This document shows positions 756-19,814 of a DNA stretch of 64,000 nt, one piece after another. Below the pieces are notes generated by a model, which was not told the DNA's origin, made no database searches, and was given only the letters and a program-made list of their open reading frames with translations. Origin of the DNA: Paenibacillus sp. BIHB 4019. GTDB taxonomy: Bacteria > Bacillota > Bacilli > Paenibacillales > Paenibacillaceae. The translations under genes and the position numbers were made by a program. The stretch lies in assembly GCF_002741035.1 (NCBI RefSeq), contig NZ_CP016808.1, positions 2,976,001 to 3,040,000 on the forward strand. Reading direction: 5' to 3'. Within the stretch, counting starts at the first letter, position 1. Every line of letters starts with the position of its first letter.

Positions 756-2312
756 ATGCTATCGAAAGGAACAAAAAGGGTGAAGGAATTGACCAGATGC
801 GTTGCTGCGGTAATCGTCTTTGTATTATTGGCCGCATTAGCGCTACCGTCCCAAGAGGCGAATGCCGCGGTTGGTCCCCTGTACCTCAACTCACCGCAAG
901 ATATCAAATTCTACACTTACAACGGCATAACGGAGATGTACATCGCCGACACGGGTAATAACCGGGTCATTCGGGCGGATCAGGACGGGCTGGCGAATTT
1001 GATTGTTCCCGTTAATAATCCGACGGCAGTCGCTGTCGACCAAGGCGGCAATATTTACGTTGCCGAATCGGGCTTGACCGCGGGCCTGCATGCGTTTAAC
1101 CGGGACGGAGGACTGCTTTCGCTAGTGAAGCATAACGGGCAGGCGATGGACAATCCCATCGATTTAATCACCCAGATGATGGTCCCCGTCGTCCAAAACT
1201 ATCCGAAGCTTATGAACATCAAAAGTCTTATCGTTAGACAGAAAATTAACCCGAACAACCAGCAAGTGTACACAGATGCCAATTTCTATTATGAAAGCTA
1301 CGGAACAATCAGTTATTTTCCTGCGACATATGGCATGGTTAATACAAAAGCTAGTCTTCGACTGGATCTGAGCGGCTCGAGCCGCGGCAGCTCCGGTCAA
1401 GGAGAGCCGGGCTTCGCGCTTCACTTTGACGGTAAACTCTGGGATTCTGGCGGCCACTACGTCGACTTGGATTCTGTCTTTAACACGTTTCCAGGGGATG
1501 GCTACTCGACGGGGGAAATCGCGGTCGATTTCATCGGAGAGATGTTTTACGTGGTTATGAACAAGACGAAAATCTATCGTACTTCCTATAACGGCGCTTC
1601 CTACTCAAATCGCCCAACACTTCAGCCCTGGCTCAACCTGACCGACGATTACAGCATTAGCGAGCCGCATGCCCTTGCCATCGGTCCCGACAATAAGCTG
1701 TATGTGACGGATGCGCCGCAAAATCGCATTGTCGTTCTTAATTTGGATGATACCGGCACCTTTAATCGGGTGCTTAGCTTGACCTCCGAGCTGAACGATC
1801 CTCCGATCGCCGGCTCTTTCATTAAACGAGGCAAGAAAGGCCATGCGATTGCCTTGAACGGCTCGGATTTCCTGAACTATTATTCCGATCCGAACGGACA
1901 TGCGATGAAGGGAATTCGCGTCGTTACGCTGCCGGCTCACGGCACGCTCAGCCTCGCAGGAGTTCCTGTTCAGGCCGAACAAGCGATTGCTGAGGCCTCG
2001 TTGAACGGCTTGATATTCACGCCCGATGCAGCTTGGGGAGGTACGACCTTCTTCGAATGGCTGGCTCTGGATTCCGGCGGGACGTATTCCGAAACGGCCG
2101 GCAAGGTGGAGCTTATCATAGGGCTGAAGGGAGATGCCAACGGGGACGGAGCCGTAACGCCTGCGGACGCGCTGCTCATCACCAAATATCTAAAAGGGAA
2201 AATTACGCTGACGGCAGATCAGCTCGAAGCACTCGACATGGATGAAGACGGCGAAGTGACCGAAGCGGATGCTACCTTGATTATGAATATCTATATGGGC
2301 AATGCAACCTAA
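756..2312 (+). CDS. Secreted NHL-repeat protein with C-terminal dockerin
   Basis: This gene encodes a 518-residue exported protein. I chose ATG 756 because AAGGAGGAGGA lies at 737-747; an upstream in-frame ATG at 729 lacks such a site. After a basic N-terminus there is a signal peptide ending near ANA-AVG. Residues 40-340 hold NHL-type beta-propeller motifs (IADTGNNRV, PTAVAVDQGGNIYVAESG, PHALAIGPDNKLYVTDAPQNR). An Ig/cadherin-like segment follows at about 365-455. The C-terminus is a dockerin: two calcium loops, DANGDGAVTPAD and DMDEDGEVTEAD, each followed by a helix. No catalytic domain is visible. It is followed after 20 bases by the cohesin-SLH gene, so the pair is probably one operon. 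Likely role (inference): a wall-displayed adhesive or binding protein held by a cohesin. Confidence 0.85.
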   Translation: MLSKGTKRVKELTRCVAAVIVFVLLAALALPSQEANAAVGPLYLNSPQDIKFYTYNGITEMYIADTGNNRVIRADQDGLANLIVPVNNPTAVAVDQGGNIYVAESGLTAGLHAFNRDGGLLSLVKHNGQAMDNPIDLITQMMVPVVQNYPKLMNIKSLIVRQKINPNNQQVYTDANFYYESYGTISYFPATYGMVNTKASLRLDLSGSSRGSSGQGEPGFALHFDGKLWDSGGHYVDLDSVFNTFPGDGYSTGEIAVDFIGEMFYVVMNKTKIYRTSYNGASYSNRPTLQPWLNLTDDYSISEPHALAIGPDNKLYVTDAPQNRIVVLNLDDTGTFNRVLSLTSELNDPPIAGSFIKRGKKGHAIALNGSDFLNYYSDPNGHAMKGIRVVTLPAHGTLSLAGVPVQAEQAIAEASLNGLIFTPDAAWGGTTFFEWLALDSGGTYSETAGKVELIIGLKGDANGDGAVTPADALLITKYLKGKITLTADQLEALDMDEDGEVTEADATLIMNIYMGNAT

Positions 2313-2332
2313 GAAACCTTGAGGTGAATACA

Positions 2333-5300
2333 TTGAACTACTCTTATGCTAACCGATCTGGATTGCGCGGCAGGTTCAGCGCTTTCCTTGCTTTGTTGCT
2401 GGTGTTGGCGCTGCTGGTGCCGGCGCTCCCGATAGCATCCGCTGCCCCGTCGGGTACGCCATCCGTGCGTGTCGGCACGGTGGCAGGAGCGCCGGGTGAT
2501 TATATCGATGTGCCGGTTTTCTTCGACTCAAATAGCTCCGATCTGTATGTCTACCGGTCGGACATTGCGATTAATTACGATCCGAACGTGCTCGAACCGG
2601 TGGCAGGAGAGGAAGCAGCTATTAGCGGGCTGGTCAAAGCAATCGACTCCAACGCGTTTTTGCTCGTAGACAATGCAACAACTGGAAGTCTGAAGCTTAA
2701 GTTGACGCTTACCGGTTTTATCGAAGACTCCAGCGAGCTGTTCACGCTGCGGTTTAAAATCAAGGAAGGCGCGCCAGCAGGCGACTCTGGCCTGACGCTC
2801 GTTCAGGGTCAGCTTTACGAGGACATCGCTCCGGTATCCGCCGATCTCGTAAGCGGGAAGGTGACCGTGTCTCTATCTGGAAATGTGTCTATTGAAATCG
2901 GCTCGGCGTCGATCATGGAAGGAGAAGCAGGCATCGTCTCCGTGCCGGTGAAGGCGATGACGCTTGATAAGGCGGTAGCCTCCTACGGCATTCGAATTAA
3001 GTTCGATCCAGACGTTTTAAGCTTTGATGGAATTGTGGAACAAGGCTTGATGTCGAACTATAACAATACCGACGGCTGGTTGATTGTTTCTTGGCTGGAT
3101 CTGACGGGCGGAGATAGCCCGATTCCAGCTTCTCAGGATGCTCAGAACCTGTTCACGATCAAGTTCGCAGTTGAAGATGACGCGCCGATCGGCGATCACG
3201 CCCTGACTATCGAGTCGCCGACTGACGTGCGGGAGCTGACGTTTACAGACGTGCATGCCGTGGAGATGAACAAGACTGTTGCAAACGGCAAAGTTTCCGT
3301 TGTGGTTCCCCCCGCAGCGCCGGCATCGGTCACCGCGACTCCGGGTGATGGCAAGATCGGGCTGGCCTGGCCGGCCGTTCCGATGGCGGAAACGTATAAA
3401 GTATACCTTTACGAGGGAGTGGCTGGGCCAGAAAACGTCACTGACTGGGTGGAAATTGCTGGTGGGGTCAGCACCAATGCGTATACTGCAGAGGGACTGA
3501 CTAACGGTACATCCTACGTATTTGCAGTCAAGTCGGTCAACCTTGCCGGGGCATCCGGTCTGAGCCCGGCTTCGGAGGCTGTTGCTCCTGTGCCAGCTCC
3601 TGGAGCGCCGAAGGATTTTAATGCCACGCCAGGCAATGGGACGGCACTCATCTCCTTCGCGAAGCCGGTCGGTACGGTCGGCGAGCCGATATTGAAGTAC
3701 CGCGTCGAAGTGCTGCTAGACAGCGACATCGTTTCGGTGAAGGAAGTGCCTGAAAGCGGCGAGAGTTTGTACAGCGCGAGCTTTGATAGCTTGTCTAACG
3801 GAAAAACGTACACGATTCGCATCTACGCGGTGAACGTTGCCGGAGATTCTGCGCCGCTGGTCGGCACGGTTCGTCCGGTGGCGAAGCCGATGGCTCCATC
3901 TATCCTGTCGGTTGTGCCGGGCAATGGACAAGTACAGGTTACCTTGGGCGCGCCGGCCAATGTGAACGAGGCGCCGGTAGACCGTTTTATTGTGACGTCT
4001 AATCCAGGCGACATCTCTGTCACAGTTGGTGGGGACCAATTATCGGCCGTTATCACCGGGCTCACAAACGGCACGTCCTATACCTTCAAGGCCGTGGCCC
4101 AAAATGCTGCGGGGATCTCCGATCCGTCCGCAGCATCACAAGCTGTCATACCGACGGCGCCGATAACGGGCAGCGGTGGCGGCGGAGCTTCGACGTCGAC
4201 ACAGCAAATTAAACTCGAAGTCAGCGATGGCAGCGGCAAGGGTGGCGTCGTAGCCAGCACGACCATCGCAAGAACGACCCTTGCGGACGGCCGCAAGAAA
4301 GACGAAGTGACACTGACGTCGGCACAAGCGGAGCAGGCGGTTAAGCAATTGAAGGAAGCCGGCTCGTCTACAGCCAGAATCGTCATTCCCGATGAGAAGG
4401 ACGAGGTAGCCGATTTGAATGTCAAGCTGCCGGCAGAGGCTGCGAAGCAGTTTGCTGCGCAAGGCGTTGATTTGCAAATCTGGACCAACAATGGTGGCAT
4501 TCTCATCCCAAGCCGCTCCTTGCAAGGCTTGCAGGAGGAAGTGTATTTCCATATCGTACCGATCAAGGCAGCCGCCGAACGCAAGCAGGTGGAAGAGCGC
4601 CTCAAAGGCGAACCAACGCTTCTTCGACTAGCGACGGCGGACGGCTTGCAGTTGATTGGTCGGCCAATGAAGATCGAGACGAATATGAGCAGTCGCGAGG
4701 TGACTCTTGAGCTTCCGGTAGGCGAGGATTTGCCGAGAGCGGAGCTGGAGAAGCTGGGCGTTTTCATCGAGCACAGCGACGGTACGAAGGAATGGGTGAA
4801 GGGCGAACAAGTCGGCTATAACGGAACGGACAAACCGGGCATCCGGTTTACGATTACTAAGTTCAGCACCTTCTCCATCGTGAAGTTGAATGTGGATAGC
4901 CTGTCTCATACGGCTTACATTCAAGGATACAGCGATGGTACGTTCCGTCCGAATCAAGCGGTTCGGCGGGTGGAAATGGCGGCGCTGCTATCCAGAGCGA
5001 TGCCGGAGACTGCTACAGGAGTAGCGGATGCGGCTTACTCCGATCTGCCGTCCGCTGCATGGGCGAAGCAGGCGATCTCACAAGCGACGGCGCAGGGCTA
5101 CATGCAGGGCTCTGGCGGTCGATTCATGCCGGACAAGCTGATTACCCGCGCGGAAATGGCAGTGATCGTCGATCGCTTGCTGAAGAGTGAAATGTCAGAG
5201 GGCGATGCTCCCTCGTCATTCAAGGATACTGACAGCCATTGGGCGGCCGGAGCAATCAGGCGAGTAAGCGCAGCTGGCATCATGTCCGGCTCTGGAGGCG

Positions 5301-5509
5301 GTCTGTTCCGTCCGAACGACTCGCTGACGCGTGCAGAAGCGGTCGTCATTCTGAACCGCGTGCTGGAGCGCGGTCCGCTAACGGGCGAGAGAGCTGCTTG
5401 GAAGGACGTTCCGGAAAGTCATTGGGCGTTCGGACACATTCAGGAGGCGTCCACGGATCACCGCTTCACCCGGAACTCGGGTGGCGGAGAGCAGTCTCTA
5501 GGCAATTAA
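2333..5509 (+). CDS. S-layer-anchored scaffoldin-like protein: two cohesins, three Fn3, SLH
   Basis: About 1058 residues. The TTG at 2333 is preferred over the in-frame GTG at 2324 because GAGGTGA (2321-2327) is well placed for it. A signal peptide ends near ASA-APS. Residues ~45-180 and ~185-330 are two cohesin-type beta-sandwich modules, each with the bounded-protein features VPV, INYDP/IKFDP and LFTL/LFTI. Three fibronectin type III domains follow (~332-605), then a ~220-residue domain also found ahead of SLH in the other surface proteins here, then three SLH motifs (~850-1058; DGTFRPN, GGRFMPDKLITRAE, GGLFRPNDSLTRAE). It is the natural partner of the dockerin protein encoded just upstream. 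SLH binding to pyruvylated wall polymer is known for the family; the pairing is inference. Confidence 0.85.
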   Translation: MNYSYANRSGLRGRFSAFLALLLVLALLVPALPIASAAPSGTPSVRVGTVAGAPGDYIDVPVFFDSNSSDLYVYRSDIAINYDPNVLEPVAGEEAAISGLVKAIDSNAFLLVDNATTGSLKLKLTLTGFIEDSSELFTLRFKIKEGAPAGDSGLTLVQGQLYEDIAPVSADLVSGKVTVSLSGNVSIEIGSASIMEGEAGIVSVPVKAMTLDKAVASYGIRIKFDPDVLSFDGIVEQGLMSNYNNTDGWLIVSWLDLTGGDSPIPASQDAQNLFTIKFAVEDDAPIGDHALTIESPTDVRELTFTDVHAVEMNKTVANGKVSVVVPPAAPASVTATPGDGKIGLAWPAVPMAETYKVYLYEGVAGPENVTDWVEIAGGVSTNAYTAEGLTNGTSYVFAVKSVNLAGASGLSPASEAVAPVPAPGAPKDFNATPGNGTALISFAKPVGTVGEPILKYRVEVLLDSDIVSVKEVPESGESLYSASFDSLSNGKTYTIRIYAVNVAGDSAPLVGTVRPVAKPMAPSILSVVPGNGQVQVTLGAPANVNEAPVDRFIVTSNPGDISVTVGGDQLSAVITGLTNGTSYTFKAVAQNAAGISDPSAASQAVIPTAPITGSGGGGASTSTQQIKLEVSDGSGKGGVVASTTIARTTLADGRKKDEVTLTSAQAEQAVKQLKEAGSSTARIVIPDEKDEVADLNVKLPAEAAKQFAAQGVDLQIWTNNGGILIPSRSLQGLQEEVYFHIVPIKAAAERKQVEERLKGEPTLLRLATADGLQLIGRPMKIETNMSSREVTLELPVGEDLPRAELEKLGVFIEHSDGTKEWVKGEQVGYNGTDKPGIRFTITKFSTFSIVKLNVDSLSHTAYIQGYSDGTFRPNQAVRRVEMAALLSRAMPETATGVADAAYSDLPSAAWAKQAISQATAQGYMQGSGGRFMPDKLITRAEMAVIVDRLLKSEMSEGDAPSSFKDTDSHWAAGAIRRVSAAGIMSGSGGGLFRPNDSLTRAEAVVILNRVLERGPLTGERAAWKDVPESHWAFGHIQEASTDHRFTRNSGGGEQSLGN

Positions 5510-5569
5510 TAGAGCAACCGGCTTAATATTTATGAAGCTAATGTTTTTAGAATGCTTTTAAAAAAGAAC

Positions 5570-5622
5570 AAAATAAAACAAGACAAGACGCAATTGTTTA
5601 GCGTCTTGTCTTGTTTTATTTT
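5570..5622 (+). terminator. Rho-independent terminator of the dockerin/cohesin operon
   Basis: A perfect 22-bp stem with a 9-base loop (5592-5600) lies 60 bases after the cohesin gene. The A-rich left arm and T-rich right arm would let it work in both directions. Confidence 0.9.
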
Positions 5623-5667
5623 AAGTACATAAAAAGCAAAAGCGATAGGTTTATTGTCAACAGTACA

Positions 5668-5770
5668 TTAGACAGCTTTTTTAAGGGCTGTAAGGCGATA
5701 TTGAGCAGGTGTCAGGTATCCCAGCGTTCCGTGAATTCAACGTACGTCGTTGTTTTGGCATTGTAGAGCC
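5668..5770 (-). pseudogene. IS3-family transposase C-terminal remnant
   Basis: Read on the - strand, the frame ends IHGTLGYLTPAQYRLTALKK-AV and a stop, the typical tail of IS3-family (OrfB, DDE) transposases. A TGA stop sits just before IHG and the upstream part is gone. Sequence after the stop (TGTACTGTTGAC) could be a trace of the IS end. It is a short dead fragment. Confidence 0.6.
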
Positions 5771-5861
5771 AACGTTTTGAAGGACTGAGGAGCCGCAATT
5801 TTAGCATTTTATGCGATCTCAGCCTGTGAGCGGACAGGAAATCCGTTATTGTCCCCATAAT

Positions 5862-6470
5862 CGCGTGAAAATGAGTATGAGGGGCTCATTAGCGGCTCCT
5901 GAGTCCGCGAGTACCGCGAAAAACCCTAATCTGGCTAAAATAGCGTCGTCTGTGTCCGTCAAATTTCCGCTGCCGACTTAGCCCGGTTATTAAGCCACTT
6001 CATATCGTCTCCGCATACATATCCGAACGAGCAAGCCTCCAGTTTTGATGCATCTATGCTTATTTAAACCTATCTAAACCTATCTAAACCTAACGTCTAC
6101 TCCGTCACGAGAATACGCGGCGTAGCTTGTTTAATCACTTTCGATGAGGCCCATGAGCCAAGCACCGCCGAGAAAATGCTCAGGCACGAGACGACGGGCA
6201 CGTCACATAATCCAGGCCGCTTAGCAAGTACAGCAGCGTCGACTTGCCGGAACCGAAGTTGCCCATAATGACAGTGAATTCGCCCTCATAAATGTCTAAA
6301 TCCACGGTTGGCATGATATTGCTCGCCGCCTGTCGAATAGGTTTTACATAGGTTTCTAGCTCAAATAATCGCTTGCTTGGTCATTTATATCTCTCCCAAA
6401 GGCTTGTCTTAACCCTATTATAATTACGCACTAAATAAAGGCTTATCGAGTTATTAATAATTCATTACAG
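5862..6470. repeat. Right copy (B) of the decayed long direct repeat
   Basis: It is collinear with 1-570 in the same orientation. Copy B is longer because it retains the ATPase Walker A part of the ABC remnant, and it leads directly into the intact acetyltransferase gene. It therefore looks closer to the ancestral arrangement than copy A. Confidence 0.8.
6097..6384 (-). pseudogene. Remnant of an ABC transporter operon (ATPase start fused to permease end), copy B
   Basis: The - strand ATG at 6384-6382 follows a GGGAGAGA site and gives MTKQAII, then a TGA, then [17 protein letters not shown]. After a frame change it reads [15 protein letters not shown] and the Walker A region [18 protein letters not shown], an ABC ATPase start of the MacB/bacitracin-exporter type. 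The ATPase breaks off after about 70 codons and, in another frame, joins the end of an FtsX-like permease ([20 protein letters not shown] then PRILVTE and stop). A nonsense codon, a frameshift and a large deletion show it is dead. Confidence 0.75.
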
Positions 6471-6500
6471 TGAAGTGCTCTTCACAAGGAGGGGGATTCT

Positions 6501-7301: not shown

Positions 7302-7339
7302 CCATTATGCGATTAGCAGAGGGGAATAGTGAAATAAAA

Positions 7340-8072: not shown

Positions 8073-8102
8073 TTTTAAGAAAAGCGTGTATTGCGTCAGC
8101 GG

Positions 8103-9416
8103 CTAATGCCCCGATGCCTCATGATCGTTGGACAGCTTCAGCACATCAAACAGCTTGAACAGCAGGCTTAGCAAAATCGCTACGACTGTCGCAAGCGCCA
8201 TGCCGGAGATGGAGAAATCGCCGAGCTTAATGGTGACGCCGCTGAGTCCGGTTACCATAACAACCGTCGTCAGAAACAGATTAGTCGGCTTGCTGTAATC
8301 GACCTTTGATTCCACGAGCATCCGGAAGCCGGATGCGGCGATAACGCCGAACAGAAGCAGGGAAACACCGCCCATAACAGGAGTCGGAATGCCCGAAATG
8401 AGCGCCGAGAATTTTCCTGAAAAAGAGAGCACAATGGCGATGACAGCAGCGCCGCCAATGACAAAGGTCGAATAAACCTTCGTGATCGCGAGTACGCCGA
8501 TATTTTCGCCGTAGGTCGTATTAGGCGTGGAGCCGACGAAGCCGGAGATCATCGTTGAAATGCCGTTGCCCAGCATGGAGCGGCTGAGTCCTGGGTCCTT
8601 CGACAAATCCTTTTCGACGATATTGCTCGTTACGACCAGATGGCCGATATGCTCGGCTATGACGACGAGCGCAGCGGGAGCGATGGCAAGAATGGCTGCC
8701 CACTGGAAGACTGGCATCGTAAACTGAGGAGACTGCAGCCAGCCGCTTTCACTAACGCCGGAAAAGTCAGTCATGCCCATAAATTGTGCAAGGACATAGC
8801 CGGACACGATTCCAATAAGAATCGGAATAATCTTCATAAACCCGCGGAACAGCACCGAGCCAAACACGGTTATAGCCAGCGTAATGGTAGACAATGCGAC
8901 CGTTGAACCGTCCATCGTCCAGTTTGCCGGGTCTTTATAGTTGTCTGGCATAATCCAGCCAGCCATTTTCGCAGCGACCGGAATGAGCTCCAGCCCGATA
9001 ATCGCTACAATCGCGCCCATCGCCGCAGGAGGGAAAACGACGTTAATCCAGCCCGTTCCCGCATAATGAATAATCAAGGCGACAAGTGTGAAAATAACGC
9101 CTGCGGCAATAAAACCGCCCAACGCTGCGGCATAATTGCCCGGCTCACCAGCTGCATGTTGGCCGATTACCGCTCCGGCAGGAGTGATAAAGGCAAAGCT
9201 GGAGCCAAGATAAGCGGGGATTTTGCCTTTGCAAATCCATAAATAAAGCAAGGTGCCGATTCCGTTCATAAGCAGGCACACAGCCGGATCGACGCCGAGC
9301 AAATTCGGCACAAGCACGGTGGAGCCGAACATGGCGAATAGATGCTGCAAGCTCAGCATCAGGCTCTGCCCTAGCGGAGGGCGATCCATAATTCCAATTG
9401 CATTACGGTTTTTCAT
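8103..9416 (-). CDS. uraA: Uracil permease, NCS2 family
   Basis: 437 residues, the usual length. It is a polytopic membrane protein that imports uracil with protons. The sequence follows E. coli UraA closely: RPPLGQSLMLSLQHLFAMFG at the start, then NGIGTLLYL, CKGKIPAYLGSSFAFI, VIAEHIGHLVVTSNIV with the substrate-binding Glu and His, GSTPNTTYGENIGV, and PVMGGVSLLLFGVIAASG. The start follows GGGAGGA. The gene stands alone, with no pyr genes beside it and no attenuator recognised upstream. In Bacillus the orthologue is called pyrP. Confidence 0.92.
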   Translation of the reverse strand: MKNRNAIGIMDRPPLGQSLMLSLQHLFAMFGSTVLVPNLLGVDPAVCLLMNGIGTLLYLWICKGKIPAYLGSSFAFITPAGAVIGQHAAGEPGNYAAALGGFIAAGVIFTLVALIIHYAGTGWINVVFPPAAMGAIVAIIGLELIPVAAKMAGWIMPDNYKDPANWTMDGSTVALSTITLAITVFGSVLFRGFMKIIPILIGIVSGYVLAQFMGMTDFSGVSESGWLQSPQFTMPVFQWAAILAIAPAALVVIAEHIGHLVVTSNIVEKDLSKDPGLSRSMLGNGISTMISGFVGSTPNTTYGENIGVLAITKVYSTFVIGGAAVIAIVLSFSGKFSALISGIPTPVMGGVSLLLFGVIAASGFRMLVESKVDYSKPTNLFLTTVVMVTGLSGVTIKLGDFSISGMALATVVAILLSLLFKLFDVLKLSNDHEASGH

Positions 9417-10021: not shown

Positions 10022-12865
10022 TTACGACGTGTGATACCCAATATACTGGTACGTCCCTTTAGGATAATAGGACCACTGGCTGGTATCGTACAAGCTCTTG
10101 CCGATTTGACCTGACTTGCGGACCATTGTACCGCCGCTTGGGAACAGGCTGCTGGTTAAAGCTCCGTTTGAGCTGATATCGCCAACTACATCAACGACCA
10201 CGCCGTTTTTCTTAAGGGCTAGGCCACTAACCGTAATGTTCCATTCCGGAGAAAACTTATCTTCATAATTGAAATAATATGCCGAGGTTATATCCATATA
10301 ATCGTAAAATGCAGTGTCTATAATAATGGTAAGTCCGTTTTGAGTGAGCATAGGAAGAGCGATCTCATGCTCGTAATATTGCCCATTTGTAGTTTGACGT
10401 CCGTAAACAAACAAGCTATAGCCTGTAAGGTCGCTGCTGTTGCTATAAATTTCGACGGCTGACCGGTTTCCATTCTCAAGTAGAAACTCGGCAATGTAAA
10501 CAGGCGAGGTTGTAAAGCTCGGAGCGTCGGCAGCGGTTGTAAACGTCCACTGCGTCTTCGAGCTCATTCCCGTCGATGCAAGACCATTGCTGTCTTTAAA
10601 GCTTCCGGCAGCAAACTTTACATAATAGGCGGTCGCGCCTGAGAGCCCGGCAACTTGGACATTTGCCGTATTGGCGCTGAACGTCACCTTGGATGGGTCA
10701 TTGAGAGCGATGCTAGCGGCAACGGTATCGTCTGATGCTTTATACACGGTAAGCGTTTGGCCTGCTGCGGCTGTAACGGGCCGATTAAACGTAAGCGAAA
10801 GCGTCAAATTTTTATTCGTATTTATCGCTTGGTTGGCAGGAGACAGGCTGGTAATTTCCAGTTCATCCGTTGCTGCAATAAGCATGTCAGCAGTCTTAAG
10901 CGTGCGTCCGCTAGTCAAAGCGCTTGCCTTGGCTGTAATGCTGAAGTTTGTAATATCCGTATCAAAGTCGGTGCCATCGTAATCTACCGATAGCCAAATT
11001 TCATTGGGGGATAAAGGCAACACATCGAGTATGGTCATGCCTTGTGGAGCATGGTTCAACTCAAAGTCGCCCGTGCCTGCCGCCGAATTGAACGTATCCT
11101 CCTCTAATGCAACAGCGAAAATAGCCCCGCCGGAAGCTCGCAGTTGATCCTCCGTCAAATCCTCAAGATCAACAGCAGTTAATTTCCGCGTATCTGCGGT
11201 CATGAACGTCCAAGCTGCATCATCGCTGATGCCTGCAAAGGCATTGCCATGCACATCTGTAAATGCGCCTTCCTCAACCTCTACGTAATAAGCAGTTATG
11301 CTCGTGAATTGAAAAAGTTGTGAAGAGGGATGGAGAATCGCTTTACCGCCTTGAATTGTAACCTGATCTGGTTCAGATACGATGTAGGTTTGCACGATCG
11401 TATCGTCTGTGGCCCGCCGAATCGTAATTTTTTTGCCTGTGACCGGAACGATATCCTCGTTAAAGGATAGTGAAGGCTCGGCTAACAAAGCATAATTCGC
11501 CTCCTGATTTGCAGGAGAGGTCTCCACGAGCAGAGGAGCGGCGACATCGGCAGTTGCAAAGCTCCAAGCTGAAGAACTGCTGATGCCTTCAAAGGCATTG
11601 CCCGCCTGATCGATGAATGCGCCAGCGTCAATCGTGACGGAATAGCTTGTCTCGCTGTCTAGATCGGCATGCTTAATCGATATATTTTTGCCATCTATGA
11701 TGATATGACTAGCATCGTCTGCATCGTAGGCCAAAACATCAAGCGGATTCGCCGTATTTGTAATATAGATTTTTTTACCGGAAACAGCTGTAACGGGTTT
11801 ATTCATTGTCAGCTCCAAATCGGCAGCTACGCTAATGTCAACCGCGGAATGAGCCGGAACCCGGTTCTGTATATAGGGTGCGGACGTATCTGGCACTACC
11901 GTGCTGGTGGCCAGCAAGTGGGATAGCCCATCGGTTATGCCTGCCGCCGCAACTGGTGTAGCTTCTACAAATAAGTAGAAGCCGACGTCTTCTGACGCTA
12001 TGGGATAGGCTGGCGAAGTTGCGCCGGCAATGGCCGTGCGGTCCGAGCCATCTGCCTGCGTGCCGCGATACCATTGGAAGCGGGAAGCGGCTTCGGCGTC
12101 ATTTTCAGCATCAAAATAATCGTATTGCACCGTCATCATTTCGCCTGCTTTCAGCAAGCCAGCGAGCGAAGCGCCGTGCAGCACAGGAGCATCGTTGATA
12201 GAGCTGAGCGTGATGATGTAATTGGAGCTGGTTGCCGAGGAGCCTTTGCCCGCATAGCTGCTTAGCAGCTTGGTTGCGTCCGCAGCGGTGACAACGCCGT
12301 CACGGTTAATATCGAGCAGATTAATCTCTTCCGGCGTCAGTACAACGCCGCTGTTCACGACCTTCATAATGTACAGGGCGTCCGCAGCAGTGACAACACC
12401 GTCGCCAGTCGTATCCCCGATGCGGGTTACGGTCAACTGGAACTGCTCCGTCAGTTTTTCAAGCGTTGGGGTTTGCGCTTCAAGCGTAATCGTAGTTGTC
12501 CCCGCCGATATAATCTCTAATTCTGTATAAAGCTGATAAGCATTTGCCGTAGCAACGGCGGAATCGCTGGACGAGGCTGTCAGCTGGGAAAGGCCCGCAA
12601 CACCGGAGAACAGCACACTTGCATCCAAGGAAATACGGGAGCTGTGATGCTCGATAGCCGCACCAAATGGGGCGGTAGAATCCGAGGAAGGCTTAATCCA
12701 GGGAATATCTTTGTTGACGATCGGGGTGAAAAAGTTGGAGGTTGCCGGAGTGGCATTCGCTCCATTTGGCAGCGGCAGAGCGGTCCCCAGCATGGTCGCG
12801 CACAAAATAATCGCAGGTCCTTTGCTGCGGGAGAAATGAGTCATTTTACGCCAATAATTATTCAT
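10022..12865 (-). CDS. Secreted dockerin protein with Ig-like (Big_5) repeats and lamin-tail domain
   Basis: 947 residues; start after AAGGAGA. The signal peptide ends near NA-TPA. Residues ~45-148 form a Big_2-like domain, followed by an internal dockerin at ~150-207 (DTTGDGVVTAAD and DINRDGVVTAAD). A domain with YFDAENDAEAASRFQWYRG at ~215-325 resembles the A9/AIR9-type Ig fold. Next come SbsA-type Ig-like domains (Big_5) near 328-435, 436-545 and 656-765, with a less clear domain between the last two. The last ~175 residues (PVYIAEFLLENGN..AVEIYSN..DLTGYSLFVYG) look like a lamin-tail domain. It shares its first ~325 residues with the two other dockerin proteins of this cluster. No enzyme domain is seen. 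Probable wall-displayed protein held by a neighbouring cohesin (inference). Confidence 0.82.
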   Translation of the reverse strand: MNNYWRKMTHFSRSKGPAIILCATMLGTALPLPNGANATPATSNFFTPIVNKDIPWIKPSSDSTAPFGAAIEHHSSRISLDASVLFSGVAGLSQLTASSSDSAVATANAYQLYTELEIISAGTTTITLEAQTPTLEKLTEQFQLTVTRIGDTTGDGVVTAADALYIMKVVNSGVVLTPEEINLLDINRDGVVTAADATKLLSSYAGKGSSATSSNYIITLSSINDAPVLHGASLAGLLKAGEMMTVQYDYFDAENDAEAASRFQWYRGTQADGSDRTAIAGATSPAYPIASEDVGFYLFVEATPVAAAGITDGLSHLLATSTVVPDTSAPYIQNRVPAHSAVDISVAADLELTMNKPVTAVSGKKIYITNTANPLDVLAYDADDASHIIIDGKNISIKHADLDSETSYSVTIDAGAFIDQAGNAFEGISSSSAWSFATADVAAPLLVETSPANQEANYALLAEPSLSFNEDIVPVTGKKITIRRATDDTIVQTYIVSEPDQVTIQGGKAILHPSSQLFQFTSITAYYVEVEEGAFTDVHGNAFAGISDDAAWTFMTADTRKLTAVDLEDLTEDQLRASGGAIFAVALEEDTFNSAAGTGDFELNHAPQGMTILDVLPLSPNEIWLSVDYDGTDFDTDITNFSITAKASALTSGRTLKTADMLIAATDELEITSLSPANQAINTNKNLTLSLTFNRPVTAAAGQTLTVYKASDDTVAASIALNDPSKVTFSANTANVQVAGLSGATAYYVKFAAGSFKDSNGLASTGMSSKTQWTFTTAADAPSFTTSPVYIAEFLLENGNRSAVEIYSNSSDLTGYSLFVYGRQTTNGQYYEHEIALPMLTQNGLTIIIDTAFYDYMDITSAYYFNYEDKFSPEWNITVSGLALKKNGVVVDVVGDISSNGALTSSLFPSGGTMVRKSGQIGKSLYDTSQWSYYPKGTYQYIGYHTS

Positions 12866-12923
12866 TCGTCCAGTTCTCCTTATAAGAGGATTGATAAGAT
12901 ATTGTCTTTATTGTAAAACAAGC

Positions 12924-12943: not shown

Positions 12944-12970
12944 TTTTTGTCGAATATAGCCGAAGTAAAA

Positions 12971-13004
12971 GGCTGCAAAATTCTAGCGATAGAATTTTGC
13001 AGCC
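12971..13004 (-). terminator. Terminator of the cohesin-SLH gene (copy 2)
   Basis: A perfect 15-bp stem (GGCTGCAAAATTCTA) with a 4-base loop, followed on the - strand by TTTT, lies 25 bases past the stop at 13029. Confidence 0.9.
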
Positions 13005-13028
13005 GGCTTGAAATCATGCAGATCAAGC

Positions 13029-14957
13029 TTAACCGTTAATTAGACCAGCTTTGACAAGCAGGCGTTTCACGATAGCAGCAGTCTCTGCCCGTGTTACATT
13101 GGAATCCGGGTTCAGAGCGCCATCGGCGCCTTGGACAATGCCGTTTTTCAAAGCGCTGGCAACAGCGGCTTTCGCATATTCGGACACAGATGCGCTGTCC
13201 TCGTAAACGGCCAGCAGGCTGTTAATTTCAGCGGCATCGCTGACTTGTGCTAATGAAGTGAGCGCAAGGGCACGGTTCAAAATAATCATCGCTTCTTCGC
13301 GAGTAATCAAGCCGTTTGGACGGAAGGTGCCGTCCGAATAGCCGCTGATCAGCTTGCTCGAAACCGCGAGCTTCACTTCATTTTCGTACCAGCTGCCTGC
13401 CTTCACATCGGAGAAGGAAACCGCTGTGCTGCCGGAAGCGGCATGGATGCCGAGTGCGCGCAGCAAGGTTGCCGTGAACTCAGCGCGAGTAATGGAAGCG
13501 TTCGGTGCAAATTCAGTTCCCGATACGCCCTTCATGATCAGGCGGGAGCCGAGATCGTTGACGTCATTTTTGCTCCAGTGATTTTCAACATCCTTGAACG
13601 AAGCCGGGGTATAAACGACTGCATAGCTGCTGTTCGTCAAGCTGTTGATGCTCGCCCAATACGTGCTGCCTGTAACGGAAATATGTGTAGGAACATGGTG
13701 CAAGGTGCCATCAGAACCAAGTACGACGCCCGTTGTAATCGCTGTGCCGTCAGAGCCGGCAGGAAGAGCGATTGCACGTTCTACATAATGATTAAACTGG
13801 TTAACGACAATGCTTTTGCCGTTGTAATGCGCGATGACTTCAAAGTCTACTGGCGTGCCAACAACGCTCAGCCCTTGCTTGGAGGCTTGGGATTTTACTG
13901 CGTTTGCCGCTGAGCTATCCGCTGTTGTAATCGAAATCGTGATTTTAATATCCGACAGGGCAACCGAAGCGCCGACCTGTGCGGAAATGCTGTCAATGTT
14001 GATATCGCTAGCAGGCAGCGTATAAGTAGCCGTAGGCGTTTGAACTTTAACGGAAGCACCGCGACCTTCCAATTCTTTCACCAGTTGGCCGTTCAGCTCG
14101 CCAGTTACGATAGCGGCAGTTGTATCTTGAACGGGAAGCACCAGCTCTTTAATGCCGGAGGTGCTAATTTGTTTGATTACTTTATCGTTGTCTACTTCAA
14201 GCAGCACTGATTTGCGTCCATTTTGTACAGAAGACTTCGATGTCGCAAATTGTGGCTGCTCCTTGCCGTCGATGTAGACGATGACCGGTGTCGATGTTGT
14301 TGTCGGCGCCGGTGTGCTTGTAGCAGGTGTCGGTGTTGTCGAACCGCCGCCAGAGCCAGAGCCTGGGTCTGGATTGTTCGGAGAGTCCTTGTAAACGACA
14401 ATTTCTCCGCCTGCCAGTGTAGACGGCACCTTATAAGAGGAACTGCGGTAAATGGCCCAATTTTCATCTTTGGACGTATCAACAGTCAAATTATAAGTTC
14501 CTGTCGTTTCGCTGCTAAGCGCTTTAATTTCAATAGTAAACAGCTGCTGCGGGTCATGAATACGCGAGTTTCCGCCAGTGGAATCGATCCAGATCGCCCG
14601 GACCCAGCCAGCCGTATTATTGAAGTTGGACTGGAAATAGCCCGTATCAGAGGGGCTGCCGTCTTCTGGAGCAACTTCACCATAGGTAGGCGTGATGCTG
14701 ACGATGCTGAAAATAGCAGGATCGAAATCGATTTGCATGTTATAAGCACCAACGCCATCGCCAGCACTCGTCAGCATGACAGGCACGCTTCCTGATTGTC
14801 CAACTGCAACTCGGGTATTCGTAATCGTAACCTGCGCAGGGGCGCTAGATTCAGCGTGTGCGGCAGCTGGAAGAAGAACGGCTGGCAACACGAGCAGGCA
14901 GCTCAGTATGAGCAGCAGAAGGCGTCTTGCAGGAGCTTGCTTCAATAATGTTTGCAT
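13029..14957 (-). CDS. Cohesin-SLH cell-surface anchoring protein, copy 2
   Basis: 642 residues from ATG 14957, chosen because GGAGGT stands 6 bases before it and the signal peptide (RRLLLLILSCLL...AHA-ESS) then begins normally; longer upstream starts run into the previous gene. Residues ~40-185 are one cohesin (GAYNMQIDFDPAIFSIVSI, NTAGWVRAIWIDSTGG, QLFTIEIKALS). A Gly/Thr/Pro linker follows, then the ~220-residue domain common to these surface proteins, then three SLH motifs (~450-642; FKDVENHWSKNDV, YSDGTFRPNGLITREEA, LNPDSNVTRAETAAIVKRL). It lies 71 bases after the dockerin gene at 15029 and is a close paralogue of 16485-18407. Role (inference): displays the dockerin partner on the S-layer/wall. 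Confidence 0.88.
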   Translation of the reverse strand: MQTLLKQAPARRLLLLILSCLLVLPAVLLPAAAHAESSAPAQVTITNTRVAVGQSGSVPVMLTSAGDGVGAYNMQIDFDPAIFSIVSITPTYGEVAPEDGSPSDTGYFQSNFNNTAGWVRAIWIDSTGGNSRIHDPQQLFTIEIKALSSETTGTYNLTVDTSKDENWAIYRSSSYKVPSTLAGGEIVVYKDSPNNPDPGSGSGGGSTTPTPATSTPAPTTTSTPVIVYIDGKEQPQFATSKSSVQNGRKSVLLEVDNDKVIKQISTSGIKELVLPVQDTTAAIVTGELNGQLVKELEGRGASVKVQTPTATYTLPASDINIDSISAQVGASVALSDIKITISITTADSSAANAVKSQASKQGLSVVGTPVDFEVIAHYNGKSIVVNQFNHYVERAIALPAGSDGTAITTGVVLGSDGTLHHVPTHISVTGSTYWASINSLTNSSYAVVYTPASFKDVENHWSKNDVNDLGSRLIMKGVSGTEFAPNASITRAEFTATLLRALGIHAASGSTAVSFSDVKAGSWYENEVKLAVSSKLISGYSDGTFRPNGLITREEAMIILNRALALTSLAQVSDAAEINSLLAVYEDSASVSEYAKAAVASALKNGIVQGADGALNPDSNVTRAETAAIVKRLLVKAGLING

Positions 14958-15028
14958 AATAACCTCCATGATAGTAAGGGTAGATGTGTGGAGCCTGGGT
15001 ATTTTGACCTTTGATAGTCTTGACACTG

Positions 15029-16369
15029 TTAACCTACAAATTGGGTTGTGAACATCCATTCAGAAAGTGAGACGCCTGCAAAATCATTTCCGTCCATATC
15101 TTCAAAGGCGCCATCATCAATGATAATGCTGAATTGTGTATCGGATGGCAGGAACATGGTTAAACCGACAATGGTAACCGTATTTCCGCTAATGAGAACG
15201 TGCGCTGGATAATCGGATGGAAAGCTCAGCACTTCAGTGTTAGTTGAGGTATCAATAAATCTGATCTCTTTACCAACAACAGCGGAAATGTCTCTATTAA
15301 ATGTAAAAACAATATTGTCATTTTGATTAACATTGACGCTTCCGTTTACAGGGGTGCGGCTTACAATGAAAGGAGCAGCGCTTGCTACGGCAGCATTTGA
15401 CTTCAAGAGGACAGCCTGGCCCGTCAGCAGATCACCAGATGCGGCAACCGGCGTAACCTCAGCGAACACATAATGATTGACATCGTCTTGCTGAAGGCTG
15501 TAAGTAGTCGCCGTTTCACCGAGGATTTCCACCCGGTCAGAGCCGTCAGCTTGATTACCGCGGAACCATTTCGTGCGGGTATTGCCCTCGGCATCATTTT
15601 CGGCGTCAAAATAGCTGTAATGCGCAGTAACGGTCTGGCCAGACACCCATGAGTCAACACTTAAGGAAGTGTTGTACACAGCAGGAGCATCGTCAATGGA
15701 GCTTAACGTGACAATATATTTTTCAGTTGAGTCCAGGGAGGTTTTGCCGGTATAGAGATTCATCAGCGCCGTGACATCTGCCATGGAGACGCTGCCGTCG
15801 CGGTCGATATCGTACAGATTGGCGTCGCCCGGGGTCAGGACGGTATTCCGCTCTATCCCTCTAGCGATCAGAAGCGCATCTGCTGCTGTAACCATGCCGT
15901 CCTTGTTCGTATCCGCAAAGCGGTCTACCGTCACTTGGAAATGCTCCGTCAGCTTTTCATTTCCGGCTGTAACGCCTTCAATTCTGATTTGAGTTGTACC
16001 AGCAGCTAAAATTTCAACGTCTATGTAAGGCAGCTGCACATTAACCGATGCGACATTTGTATCGCTGGACCAAGCGGTTAACGTAGTGATGTTGGCTGCC
16101 TGAGGGAATAGCTTCGTCGTATCCAGCATAATGGAGGAGTCATACGTAATAATCTGCGATCCCGTGCTAGGGACAGGACTGTAATTAGAAGTAGGCTTGA
16201 CCCATTGTATATCGTTGTTTACAACAGGCAGGAAGTAGTTCGATGGTCCAGATGCTGCATGCGCCAGAGTTGACAATGACAAGCTTGTTCCTAGTACAGC
16301 GGTGCACAACAATAGCGAGGGACCTTTGCTGCGTGAAAAACCAGCCATTTTACGCAAAGAATGCTTCAT
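15029..16369 (-). CDS. Secreted dockerin protein with Ig-like domains, copy 2
   Basis: 446 residues; AAAGGAGA precedes the start by about 10 bases. A signal peptide ends near AHA-ASG. Residues ~42-150 are a Big_2-like domain, ~151-208 a dockerin (DTNKDGMVTAAD and DIDRDGSVSMAD), ~217-325 an A9-like Ig domain (YFDAENDAEGNTRTKWFRG), and ~330-446 an SbsA-type Ig domain (PVNGSVNVNQNDNIVFTFNR, ending EWMFTT). The dockerin is internal rather than terminal. The gene heads a two-gene unit with the cohesin-SLH gene at 13029. Only about 60 bases separate its start from the terminator of the preceding unit, so its promoter must be compact or it relies on read-through. Confidence 0.85.
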   Translation of the reverse strand: MKHSLRKMAGFSRSKGPSLLLCTAVLGTSLSLSTLAHAASGPSNYFLPVVNNDIQWVKPTSNYSPVPSTGSQIITYDSSIMLDTTKLFPQAANITTLTAWSSDTNVASVNVQLPYIDVEILAAGTTQIRIEGVTAGNEKLTEHFQVTVDRFADTNKDGMVTAADALLIARGIERNTVLTPGDANLYDIDRDGSVSMADVTALMNLYTGKTSLDSTEKYIVTLSSIDDAPAVYNTSLSVDSWVSGQTVTAHYSYFDAENDAEGNTRTKWFRGNQADGSDRVEILGETATTYSLQQDDVNHYVFAEVTPVAASGDLLTGQAVLLKSNAAVASAAPFIVSRTPVNGSVNVNQNDNIVFTFNRDISAVVGKEIRFIDTSTNTEVLSFPSDYPAHVLISGNTVTIVGLTMFLPSDTQFSIIIDDGAFEDMDGNDFAGVSLSEWMFTTQFVG

Positions 16370-16428
16370 TTGTCTTAAGTCTCCTTTGTTCCGAGAATCT
16401 TGTCTAATTCAAGCAGCTGAGTTTGAAA

Positions 16429-16462
16429 AGCTGTAAGATTCCAAGCTCAGAATCTTACAGCT
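16429..16462 (-). terminator. Terminator of the cohesin-SLH gene (copy 1)
   Basis: A perfect 13-bp stem (AGCTGTAAGATTC) with an 8-base loop, followed on the - strand by TTTT, lies 23 bases past the stop at 16485. Confidence 0.9.
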
Positions 16463-16484
16463 ATATAACAAGCTTGCTAGCGGC

Positions 16485-18407
16485 TTAGCCGTTAATCAGG
16501 CCAGCCTTGACGAGCAGGCGCTTCACAATAGCAGCCGTTTCGGCACGGGTTACGTTGGAATCCGGGTTCAGAGAACCGTCAGCTCCCTGCACAATGCCGT
16601 TTTTCAAAGCGCTGGCAACAGCGGCTTTCGCATATCCCGACACCGAGGAGCTGTCCCCGTAAGCATCCAGCAGGCTGTCGATTTCAGCAGCATCGCTGAC
16701 GGTTGGCAAAGTTGTAAGCGCAAGAGCGCGGTTCAAAATAATCATCGCTTCTTCACGGGTAATCAAGCCGTTTGGACGGAAGGTGCCGTCCGAATAGCCG
16801 CTGATCAGCTTGTTTGATACAGCAAGCTTCACTTCATTTTCATACCAGCTGCCTGCCTTTACATCAGAGAAGGAAACCGAAGTGCTGACGGAAGCCTTAT
16901 GAATGCCAAGTGCGCGCAGCAGGGTTGCTGTAAACTCAGCGCGTGTAATGGAAGCATTCGGTGCGAACTCCGTGCTCGATACGCCCTTCATGATCAGGCG
17001 GGAGCCGAGATCGTTGACGTCATTTTTGCTCCAGTGATTTTCAACATCCTTGAACGAAGCAGGCGCATACACGATCGCATAGCTGCTGTTCGTCAAGCTG
17101 TTGATGTTTGCAAAATACGTGCTGCCCGTTACGGATATATAGGTTGGCACATGACGCAGCGTGCCATCTTCGCCAAGCACGACGCCCGTTGTCATCTTCG
17201 AGCCGTCTGCGCCGGCAGGCAGAGTGATTGAGCGTTCTACATAATGATTAAATTGGCCGATGCTGATGTTTTGTCCATTGTACTGCGCAATGACTTCAAA
17301 GTTTACCGGAGCGCCAACGACGCTTACGCCTTGTTTGGATGCTTGGCTTTGTACAGTATTGATGGTTGCATTGTCTGCTGCAGTAATAGAAATGATGATT
17401 TTAATATCGGACAGCTTCACCGTTGTACCGACTTGTGCGGAAATCGCATCAATGTTGATGTCGCTCGCAGGCAAGGTGTAGCTAGCTGCAGGCGTCTCGA
17501 TTTTAACAGTTGCGCCGCGTTTCTCCAGTTCCTTCACCAGTTGGCCGTTCAATCCTCCGTTGACGACAGCGACTGTGCTGTCTTGAATCGGAAGCACGAG
17601 CTCTTTAATGCCTGTTGTGTCGATTTGCTTAAGAACCTTTTCATTGTCTACGTCCAGCTGTACCGTTTTGCGGCCGTTCTGCACAGAGGTTTGAGCCGTT
17701 GCATATTGCTGCTCCTTGCCGTCGATGTATACAATAACCGGAGTTGTTGTAGTTGTCGGAGCTGGTGTGTTTGTAGCAGGAGTCGTAGTGGAACCTCCGC
17801 CTGACGAGCCTGAACCTGAACCAGATCCTGAGTTTGCCTTAGAAATGACGATTTCTCCGCCATCAACGGTAGAAGGCGTTGTATACGATGGGCTGCGGTA
17901 GAACGCCCATTTCTCAGCGTTCGTCGTATCTACAGTCAGGTGATACGTTCCTGTCGTTTCGCTGCTGAGCGATTTAACCTCAATAGCGAATAGCTGGATA
18001 GGATCGTTAATGCGCGAGTTTCCGCCCGTAGAGTCTATCCAGATGGCGCGTGCCCAGCCTGCCGTATTGTCAAAGTTGGACTGAAAATAGCCTGTAGCTG
18101 ATGGAGCGCCGTTTTCTGGCGCCACTTCACCATGTGTAGGCGTAATGCTGACGATGCTTAGCACGGAAGGATCGAAGTCGATTTGCATATTGTAAGCGCC
18201 GACGCCGTCCCCTGGATCTGTGAGCATGACGGGCACGGTTGCTGATTGTCCAGCTGTCACATTGGTATTCGTAATCGTAACCTTCGCAGGGGCATCTGAT
18301 GCAGCATGTGCGGCAGAAGGGACAAAAAAAGCTGGCAAAATGAGCAGGCAGCTCAGCATGAGCAGCAGAAAGCGTTTAGCAGGAGCTTGTCTCAATAATG
18401 GTTGCAT
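16485..18407 (-). CDS. Cohesin-SLH cell-surface anchoring protein, copy 1
   Basis: 640 residues from ATG 18407 behind GGAGGT, the same arrangement as in its paralogue at 14957. The signal peptide ends AHA-ASD. One cohesin covers ~40-185 (AYNMQIDFDPSVLSIVSI, TAGWARAIWIDSTGG, QLFAIEVKSLS), then a Gly/Ser/Thr/Pro linker, the shared pre-SLH domain, and three SLH motifs ending MKGVSSTEFAPNASITRAEF ... VTRAETAAIVKRLL. The SLH region is almost identical to that of copy 2, while linker and cohesin have diverged slightly more. It follows the dockerin gene at 18480 by 72 bases. Confidence 0.88.
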   Translation of the reverse strand: MQPLLRQAPAKRFLLLMLSCLLILPAFFVPSAAHAASDAPAKVTITNTNVTAGQSATVPVMLTDPGDGVGAYNMQIDFDPSVLSIVSITPTHGEVAPENGAPSATGYFQSNFDNTAGWARAIWIDSTGGNSRINDPIQLFAIEVKSLSSETTGTYHLTVDTTNAEKWAFYRSPSYTTPSTVDGGEIVISKANSGSGSGSGSSGGGSTTTPATNTPAPTTTTTPVIVYIDGKEQQYATAQTSVQNGRKTVQLDVDNEKVLKQIDTTGIKELVLPIQDSTVAVVNGGLNGQLVKELEKRGATVKIETPAASYTLPASDINIDAISAQVGTTVKLSDIKIIISITAADNATINTVQSQASKQGVSVVGAPVNFEVIAQYNGQNISIGQFNHYVERSITLPAGADGSKMTTGVVLGEDGTLRHVPTYISVTGSTYFANINSLTNSSYAIVYAPASFKDVENHWSKNDVNDLGSRLIMKGVSSTEFAPNASITRAEFTATLLRALGIHKASVSTSVSFSDVKAGSWYENEVKLAVSNKLISGYSDGTFRPNGLITREEAMIILNRALALTTLPTVSDAAEIDSLLDAYGDSSSVSGYAKAAVASALKNGIVQGADGSLNPDSNVTRAETAAIVKRLLVKAGLING

Positions 18408-18479
18408 AATAACCTCCATGAAAGTAAGAATAGATGGATGAAGCTTGATTATTTGTTAAGTTCGCAAGCTGTTGGAGTA

Positions 18480-19814
18480 TTAGCTCGGGTAGTCGGTAGT
18501 AAATTCCCATTCTCCTTGATCGAAGCCTGCATAATAATTACCGTTTGCATCTTTAAAGGAACCATGATCAATTAAAAGAACAAAGTGCGTACCGTATGAC
18601 AGTTTTCCAGCCAGGTGTTTAATAGTAACGGTTTTTCCAACAACCTCAATATTGTAATCATCATCGGCAAGATAGTCTAATACAATGCTGTCTATTCCAG
18701 AATGATAAAAACGAATGTGCTTACCAGGAACAGCCGTAACCTCTCTATCGAAAGTGAAGACAATATCAGCATTTCTATCGACATTTACACTGTAATTTTC
18801 GGGTGTAAGGCTAACAATGGTAGGAGTAGCACTCAATACGATAGAATCGGGCTTCAATAGGACCGTTTCGCCCGTCAGCAGATCGCCGGATTCGGCAACT
18901 GGCGTCACTTCTGCGAACACATAATAATTTAGATCGGTTTGCTGAAGAGTATAGCTGTTCGACGTTGCGCCTATGATTTCCGTACGGTCCGAGCCATCTG
19001 CTTGCAGGCCGCGGAACCATTTAAAGCGGCTATTGCCTTCGAAGTCATTTTCAGGATCAAAATAACTGTATTGCGTAGTCACCGTTTGGCCTGGTGCCCA
19101 TGCATCAGCGCTTAAATAGCCGTTATATATAGCTGGAGCATCGTCAATGGCGCTTAAGGTGACGATATATTTTTTAGATGAGTCTAGAACGGTTTTGCCA
19201 GTGTAGAGGTCCATTAAGGCGGAAGCGTCCGCTGCCGTTACGGATCTGTCGCGGTCGATATCATATAAATTGAAGTCTCCGTCAGTAAGGGGAGAATTTC
19301 TGCTTAGCTCCCGAACGATGTGAAAGGCATCCGCTGACGTAATCATGCCGTCTTTATTCGTATCGGCGAAGAGGTCTACCGTCACGCGAAAGTGTTCGGT
19401 CAGCTTTTCATTTTCAGAGGTAACGCCTTCAACCCTGATTTCAGTCGTTCCCGGGCCGAATATTTCCATCTCAAGGTTGGGTGAATAAGCGTTCGCAGAC
19501 GCGACGCTCGTATCGCTGGAAGCAGCAGTTAACATCGTTATGACGGTTGATGGAGGGAAGAGCTTCAGTGAATCCAATGAGAAGTAGCTGCCATAAACGT
19601 CAATGGTTGAGCCCATTCCCGCATTCGCATTGGAATCATTTTTAACCCAGTGCAAATCATTGTTTACTACAGGAAGAAAGTAGTTAGAAGGTTCTGAAAT
19701 TGCATATGCCGGAGCAGATAGTGACAAAGTGGTCCCCAATACTGCAGCACAAACAAAAAGCGATGGGCCCTTTTTCAGGGATAATGCGGTCAATTTGCGC
19801 CAATAATCGTTCAT
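18480..19814 (-). CDS. Secreted dockerin protein with Ig-like domains, copy 1
   Basis: 444 residues from ATG 19814, which has AAGGAG about 10 bases upstream and makes the N-terminus (MNDYWRKLTALS) match that of the 12865 protein; an upstream in-frame ATG at 19859 lacks this. Layout: signal peptide, Big_2-like domain, internal dockerin at ~150-207, A9-like domain (YFDPENDFEGNSRFKWFRG), and one SbsA-type Ig domain. The first calcium loop is DTNKDGMITSAD. The second is DIDRDRSVTAAD, in which the normally invariant glycine is arginine, so calcium binding at this loop may be altered. It is the first gene of the first dockerin/cohesin unit. Confidence 0.85.
   Translation of the reverse strand: MNDYWRKLTALSLKKGPSLFVCAAVLGTTLSLSAPAYAISEPSNYFLPVVNNDLHWVKNDSNANAGMGSTIDVYGSYFSLDSLKLFPPSTVITMLTAASSDTSVASANAYSPNLEMEIFGPGTTEIRVEGVTSENEKLTEHFRVTVDLFADTNKDGMITSADAFHIVRELSRNSPLTDGDFNLYDIDRDRSVTAADASALMDLYTGKTVLDSSKKYIVTLSAIDDAPAIYNGYLSADAWAPGQTVTTQYSYFDPENDFEGNSRFKWFRGLQADGSDRTEIIGATSNSYTLQQTDLNYYVFAEVTPVAESGDLLTGETVLLKPDSIVLSATPTIVSLTPENYSVNVDRNADIVFTFDREVTAVPGKHIRFYHSGIDSIVLDYLADDDYNIEVVGKTVTIKHLAGKLSYGTHFVLLIDHGSFKDANGNYYAGFDQGEWEFTTDYPS

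Follow-up and report, generated by a model that had tools for sequence, protein, structure and literature searches.

Dockerin and cohesin genes in the window

The window analysed here, the whole stretch of 64,000 nucleotides that comprises bases 2976001-3040000 of the one-contig genome (7,246,671 bases) of the soil bacterium Paenibacillus sp. BIHB 4019, carries within 19 kb seven genes for two kinds of protein, four candidate cargoes with a dockerin (D1, D3, D5 and D7) and three candidate anchors (A2, A4 and A6) which combine cohesins with S-layer homology (SLH) domains. An earlier interpretation, below called the sequence-only reading, had counted four dockerin proteins and three SLH proteins with four cohesins (two, one and one), and Pfam recovers all of them above the cut-offs for Dockerin_1 (PF00404, 22.9 bits) and Cohesin (PF00963, 24.1 bits), with three SLH stretches in each anchor. 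On the forward strand, D1 (756..2312) joins an NHL beta-propeller (41.6 bits), a cadherin-like region (Cadherin_4, 21.2 bits, under its cut-off of 25.1) and a C-terminal dockerin (48.8 bits), and is followed by A2 (2333..5509) with two cohesins (75.8 bits over both stretches), three fn3 domains (83.4 bits) and three SLH domains (108.5 bits). On the reverse strand, D7 (18480..19814; Dockerin_1 30.4 bits) precedes the single-cohesin anchor A6 (16485..18407; Cohesin 43.2 bits for the protein read from a start at 18419), and D5 (15029..16369; 36.2 bits) precedes A4 (13029..14957; Cohesin 49.6 bits, SLH 123.3 bits), likewise with one cohesin, after which D3 (10022..12865; 37.3 bits) follows as a third cargo. 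D3, D5 and D7 each possess an internal dockerin, an AIR9-type immunoglobulin (Ig) match (in D7 of 27.4 bits against a cut-off of 27.5) and one to three Big_5 Ig-like domains (three in D3).

By eye, the window proteins start with signal-peptide-like N-termini, and the start codons chosen before are supported by sequence resembling a ribosome-binding site ahead of 756, 14957 and 18407, with a GGAGG-type site in the case of D1, whose open reading frame (ORF) opens at 729. Pfam finds no SLH match in the window cargoes, and in none of the seven proteins a cohesin together with a dockerin, as in a monovalent adaptor scaffoldin. That the dockerin proteins bear NHL and Ig-like domains and no enzyme domain agrees with the sequence-only reading, whereas the lamin-tail domain it had placed at the end of D3 is dropped, as this C-terminal tail matches nothing in Pfam even at E 5. 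The closest named relatives of the A6 and D5 proteins are from Paenibacillus.

As previously recognized, a cohesin-SLH gene comes directly after a dockerin gene in three cases, at distances of 11-20, 60-72 and 71 base pairs (bp) depending on the start codon; the apparent 31-bp overlap between A4 and D5, calculated from the first possible start, becomes a distance of 71 bp from the likely A4 start. The seven genes do lie within 19 kb, but they are not one array: the forward pair D1-A2, which ends at 5509, is followed by unrelated genes, including a GNAT acetyltransferase (Pfam) and a permease (by eye), and then by the series of five genes on the reverse strand. A single transcript over the 19 kb is ruled out by the differing strands and by strong predicted hairpins after A2, A6, A4 and D3 (gap fold energies of -31.8 to -47.7). 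Terminator-like in appearance are the hairpins after A2 (5570..5622, forward strand; 22-bp stem and a loop of 9, found by folding and absent from the terminator scan, whose loop limit is 8) and between A4 and D3 (12971..13004, reverse strand; 15-bp stem and TTTT, found by scan and folding), while the A6-D5 gap (16370..16484, reverse strand) folds into a 14-bp stem with a short T run. The three cargo-anchor gaps fold weakly (-0.4 to -9.8), and two-gene transcripts would fit these gaps and the hairpin positions. In two scans, promoter-like sites are about as common as in shuffled sequence (12 versus 11.8 and 5 versus 5.5) and terminator-like sites are fewer (5 versus 11.5 and 3 versus 6.8). With counts at or below chance, the scans lend no support; it is the length of the stems that speaks for the hairpins, and no promoter is proposed.

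At this locus the cargo-anchor pair has been duplicated as a unit. The slot flanked by 8103-9416 (permease-like, by eye) and 20018-20773 (exonuclease-like, by eye), the products of which are 93-95% identical in three relatives, holds the order cargo-anchor-cargo-anchor-cargo in the window and in relative G047 and a single cargo-anchor pair in G002 and G048; A4 and A6 are 79% identical and D5 and D7 60% identical.

Recurrence of the pair in the genome, genus and family

In the whole genome, Pfam identifies 11 cohesin stretches in nine ORFs and six dockerins, with a second dockerin profile recovering the identical six. Five of the six dockerin ORFs adjoin a cohesin-SLH gene, and the cohesin-SLH ORFs that adjoin a dockerin gene are four, A2, A4, A6 and 835395-838583 (genome coordinates here and below), an adjacency far above the estimated background, by which about 0.2% of genes (with some 6,500 genes assumed) neighbour a dockerin gene. 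At this second locus, the dockerin gene (833527-835305), which has BNR-like matches and a B-repeat, lies 89 bp downstream of the anchor gene. The system appears non-cellulosomal, as had been proposed, since no glycoside hydrolase was matched in any of the six dockerin ORFs (five of these are without an enzyme match, one is a subtilase) and no many-cohesin primary scaffoldin was found by Pfam, each ORF having two cohesin stretches at most. The subtilase (563571-567530; L019:8572-12531) has in addition a weak cohesin (25.5 bits against the cut-off of 24.1) and, at 1,024 bp, a neighbouring 437-amino acid SLH ORF (561233-562546; L019:6234-7547), in which a custom cohesin profile scores 20 bits and Pfam matches no cohesin. 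A dockerin ORF of similar size (1317-1325 amino acids, unaligned) is present in three relatives, each time with an SLH gene 56-198 bp farther downstream, and for two of these SLH genes the custom profile detects a cohesin; the subtilase locus perhaps displays a protease on the same principle. Elsewhere in the window, 36610-43182 encodes a 2190-amino acid protein in which SLH is combined with laminin-G-like domains, atrophied Ig domains and a match that is GH32 N-terminal-like.

Cargo-anchor pairs are also found in other Paenibacillus genomes. Of 51 genomes from the genus, 41 contain dockerins and 44 contain cohesins, and the top 54 cohesin places by rank comprise 46 ORFs that combine a cohesin with a dockerin in cis, seven cohesin-SLH anchors and one lone cohesin. 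All seven anchors have a dockerin gene in trans beside them, six upstream and one downstream; these anchors are also present in the selected regions described below, the ranking itself being independent of pairing. Among the top 40 dockerin places, 39 were resolved into 25 cis and 14 trans, and 12 of the 14 trans as compared to eight of the 25 cis places have a cohesin-SLH gene no farther than 400 bp away on either side. Of 20 regions selected from the genus, 14 contain a trans pair (15 pairs). The remaining ones are L037, L039 and L041, with cis proteins and an SLH neighbour, L038, with a dockerin ORF and a cis ORF after an SLH ORF, L040, with a dockerin and no SLH, and L043, with a cohesin only. 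With respect to the cis proteins, adjacent genes which each encode a cohesin and a dockerin are seen at genus loci such as L154, L157, L159, L166, L169 and L172, and an SLH gene stands beside 18 of the 46 cis places, with a cohesin on 15 of these 18; it is conceivable that cis cohesin-dockerin proteins form head-to-tail chains.

Cargo-anchor pairing is widespread in the family Paenibacillaceae, where it is found in seven genera. The anchor-cohesin profile matches 193 of 394 genomes and 16 of 19 genera, figures that include weak matches and are not a pair count. The 60 best-ranked ORFs outside the genus, drawn from six genera other than that of the window, bear SLH domains in 59 cases and have a dockerin gene on the same strand immediately upstream in 58 (gaps of -68 to 276 bp, the overlaps being upper limits as ORFs begin at the first possible start codon), two anchors having another dockerin gene downstream. 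L134 is without SLH and without dockerin. At L105, a dockerin ORF (L105:9107-9700) which ends past the first calcium loop is located 539 bp upstream of an SLH-bearing anchor and is possibly a broken cargo gene. In named genomes, nine loci from Paenibacillus and Cohnella, at least three of which may duplicate loci of the other sets, have a dockerin gene beside the match in nine of nine cases (eight upstream, one downstream), with the anchor ORF resolved in eight. Sampling across the class gave matches in 25 of 398 genomes, eight of them outside the family, and the sole match outside the family below E 1e-20, in G441 from another family, is a pair 0 bp apart; two other, weaker places that were checked are not pairs. 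Two intended controls proved unusable: 46 of 285 other ORFs of more than 200 amino acids stand beside a dockerin gene, but at loci chosen around dockerin neighbours, and SLH ORFs without cohesin do so in 0 of 2 cases, two only.

The cargoes are diverse. Apart from the dockerin, by which they had been selected, the 59 out-of-genus partners frequently match Flg_new_2 (21), AIR9 Ig (17), Flg_new (14), Big_5 (9), DUF6242 (8), CBM_X2 (7), NHL (5) and fn3 (5). For partner subsets of 26, 16 and 17 members, 6 of 6, 23 of 23 and 25 of 29 Pfam families, respectively, were listed. No clear catalytic domain is among these listed matches; enzyme-named families with single or double matches are Peptidase_M26_N, an alpha-mannosidase jelly-roll, DPPIV_N (two), SGL and a strictosidine-synthase-like family, and matches to FtsX, US22 and TRAP_beta occur unexplained. 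Ten more partners (one from this genome, nine from the genus) display propellers, Ig-like and PKD-like domains, B-repeats, GLUG and beta-helix, as well as F5/8 type C, CBM9 (one partner) and SbsC C-terminal domains.

Folds, calcium ligands and two types of pair

The cohesin regions, on the identity of which the sequence-only reading had made the system depend, match cohesins in Pfam, in a profile search of solved structures (6kgc_A, E 1.8e-15) and in their predicted fold; the A4 cohesin as a lone query found no solved structure at E 0.05, while the profile query did. The A6 model (predicted local distance difference test, pLDDT, 84.8; predicted template modelling score 0.64) resembles cohesins at residues 40-190, including the non-cellulosomal cohesins 2xdh of Archaeoglobus and 2vo8 and 2w1n of Clostridium perfringens, and SLH trimers at residues 450-637, including Sap 3pyw and SpaA-SLH entries. 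Between cohesin and SLH, residues of about 220-445 form a block with pLDDT 75-94 that is conserved among anchors. The SLH trimer of the anchors contains TRAE-type motifs, the first of which is VRRVE in A2. SLH domains bind pyruvylated secondary wall polymer, and CsaB is present in the genome. In the D5 model (pLDDT 82.6) the dockerin helices span residues 162-173 and 196-206; the fold searches listed no dockerin, as the listings were filled by the Ig domains of D5.

For a comparison of pairs, 78 were assembled, four from this genome, 15 from ten other genomes of the genus picked for nearby modules and 59 in rank order, L105 being left out of the ligand count and of the distance correlation below. 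The dockerin gene is upstream in 76 of the 78. Type A pairs (33), such as those of A4 and A6, have one cohesin and an internal dockerin and type B pairs (40), such as D1-A2, two to four cohesins and a C-terminal dockerin; this split holds in 73 pairs and five are of neither type. In the calcium loops of 77 paired dockerins, positions 1 and 12 are Asp in all 77 and position 3 of loop 1 is Asn or Asp in 71. A divergent InlB B-repeat matches 21 of the 33 type B out-of-genus partners and ends 2-5 residues from the C-terminal dockerin match in L083, L085 and the second locus of this genome (L018), which by analogy recalls the X-module beside type II dockerins (PMC5141474). Beyond the SLH region, dockerin and cohesin distances correlate with a partial r of 0.61 in type A and 0.46 in type B (0 of 500 permutations each).

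A candidate surface-display module and its alternatives

These observations make it probable, in our judgement, that the pair constitutes a two-gene surface-display module, in which a dockerin cargo is held non-covalently on the wall by the cohesin-SLH anchor encoded next door. The arrangement looks like a redeployment of cellulosomal docking parts for display on the cell surface. The upstream gene would provide a secreted cargo with one calcium-binding dockerin, and the downstream gene would provide the anchor, likewise secreted, whose one to four cohesins lie at the opposite end from the SLH domains that would attach it to the cell wall. Outside the cell, the cohesin would grip the neighbour-encoded dockerin in a calcium-dependent and partner-specific manner, by analogy via the strand 8-3-6-5 face of type II complexes (PMC5141474). 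The result would be a coat or adhesive surface, the likeliest role as the window cargoes are propeller and Ig-like proteins without enzyme match.

Several findings weigh against this reading. The pairs are often close relatives (52, 36 and 14 cohesin single-linkage clusters at 90, 70 and 50% identity), and the permutations take no account of descent. In type A, the dockerin correlates with the rest of the cargo (r 0.95) better than with the cohesin (r 0.91), so that the correlation may be largely shared history. The domain profiles behind the genus and family pairing counts were trained partly on paired loci, and the count among the 60 best-ranked ORFs speaks for relatives of the anchors, as the profile was built from paired anchors. 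Furthermore, the anchor at the second locus precedes its cargo; D3, the subtilase and the second-locus cargo have no cohesin-SLH gene directly after them; the cohesin-SLH ORF 496399-500124 (cohesin 28.5 bits) has no dockerin within the 14 kb examined, and a second, weaker cohesin-SLH ORF in G441 (1749 amino acids, L185) likewise lacks one; ligand position 3 in loop 1 of D3 is occupied by Thr; and the adhesive role is suggested by domain types, read from sequence.

In a variant of this reading, docking may be promiscuous within a type, the anchors being a shared pool and the pairing merely balancing dosage, to which we assign somewhat less than an even chance. That A4 and A6 are more alike than D5 and D7, that no anchor gene comes after D3, the third type A cargo, and that the split into types holds so widely would all be expected from such a pool; gene-by-gene pairing kept across seven genera argues for private partners, and so does the residual dockerin-cohesin correlation within types, though shared history could produce it. 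It is improbable that the cohesin-like modules are non-binding structural spacers in co-expressed wall proteins of separate function: cohesin-like ORFs without dockerin neighbour do exist (664883-667606, 1024086-1025429, 1703521-1705128 and 496399-500124), but the window cargoes are themselves without an SLH match, by profile and fold search the anchor cohesin is similar to cohesins whose structures were solved as dockerin complexes, and adjacency far exceeds the estimated background. Marginally less probable still, and rejected as no dockerin-bearing glycoside hydrolase was matched in the genome with two dockerin profiles and Pfam, is a reduced or degenerate cellulosome, whose anchors bound or still bind carbohydrate enzymes of the same cell, even though the module families are identical to cellulosomal ones, CBM_X2 occurs in seven of 59 out-of-genus and CBM9 in one of ten genus-level partners and GH-bearing cohesin-dockerin proteins are listed for Paenibacillus guangzhouensis (PMC11557425), given at most two cohesins per ORF here and no clear catalytic domain among the matches listed for the 59 partners.

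The candidate display module shares with the SLH-anchoring scaffoldins of cellulosomes, in the sense of PMC11557425, at least one cohesin and SLH on one protein, a dockerin partner and the cohesin fold, and differs in that the neighbouring gene encodes the likely partner, a non-enzyme by Pfam. According to section 15 of that paper, P. guangzhouensis has 35 cohesin proteins, among them five SLH-anchoring scaffoldins and 28 that join cohesin to dockerin in cis, many of these bearing glycoside hydrolase domains, and only one dockerin outside a scaffoldin; this set, from the same genus and likewise with SLH-anchoring cohesin proteins, is described there without mention of gene pairing. Cellulosomes are given as confined to Lachnospiraceae and Clostridiaceae in PMC5817068, and the S1 protein of P. 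curdlanolyticus is presented without cohesin-dockerin modules in PMC6823336. Unlike other SLH surface proteins and those of S-layers, the cargoes here lack SLH and would be held via the cohesin. In contrast to the cohesins 2xdh, 2vo8 and 2w1n, which we take to be scattered or enzyme-borne modules, a cargo-then-anchor gene pair is repeated. The arrangement had been judged unusual; it is widespread in Paenibacillaceae, yet undescribed in the titles and abstracts of the open-access literature searched, a scope outside which most subscription papers fall, and it is only relative to this literature that the gene pairing is claimed as new.

Cohesin-dockerin docking is known mainly from cellulosomes. 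The cargo-then-anchor pair, which recurs in seven genera of one family and is found in one genome of another, offers dozens of natural, gene-linked candidates, by which the largely open role of docking outside cellulosomes becomes directly testable, and possibly a supply of new orthogonal docking pairs for protein engineering. A more far-reaching proposal, which we consider rather unlikely in its full extent, is that Paenibacillaceae might possess a general plug-in system of the outer surface with private lock-and-key pairs, gained by tandem duplication, with cargoes diversifying faster than anchors and multi-cohesin and cis proteins linking docked proteins into chains or a second coat, of which the cellulosome would be one specialised outcome. 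The two-gene module itself provides a concrete hypothesis for how these bacteria may display large non-enzymatic proteins.
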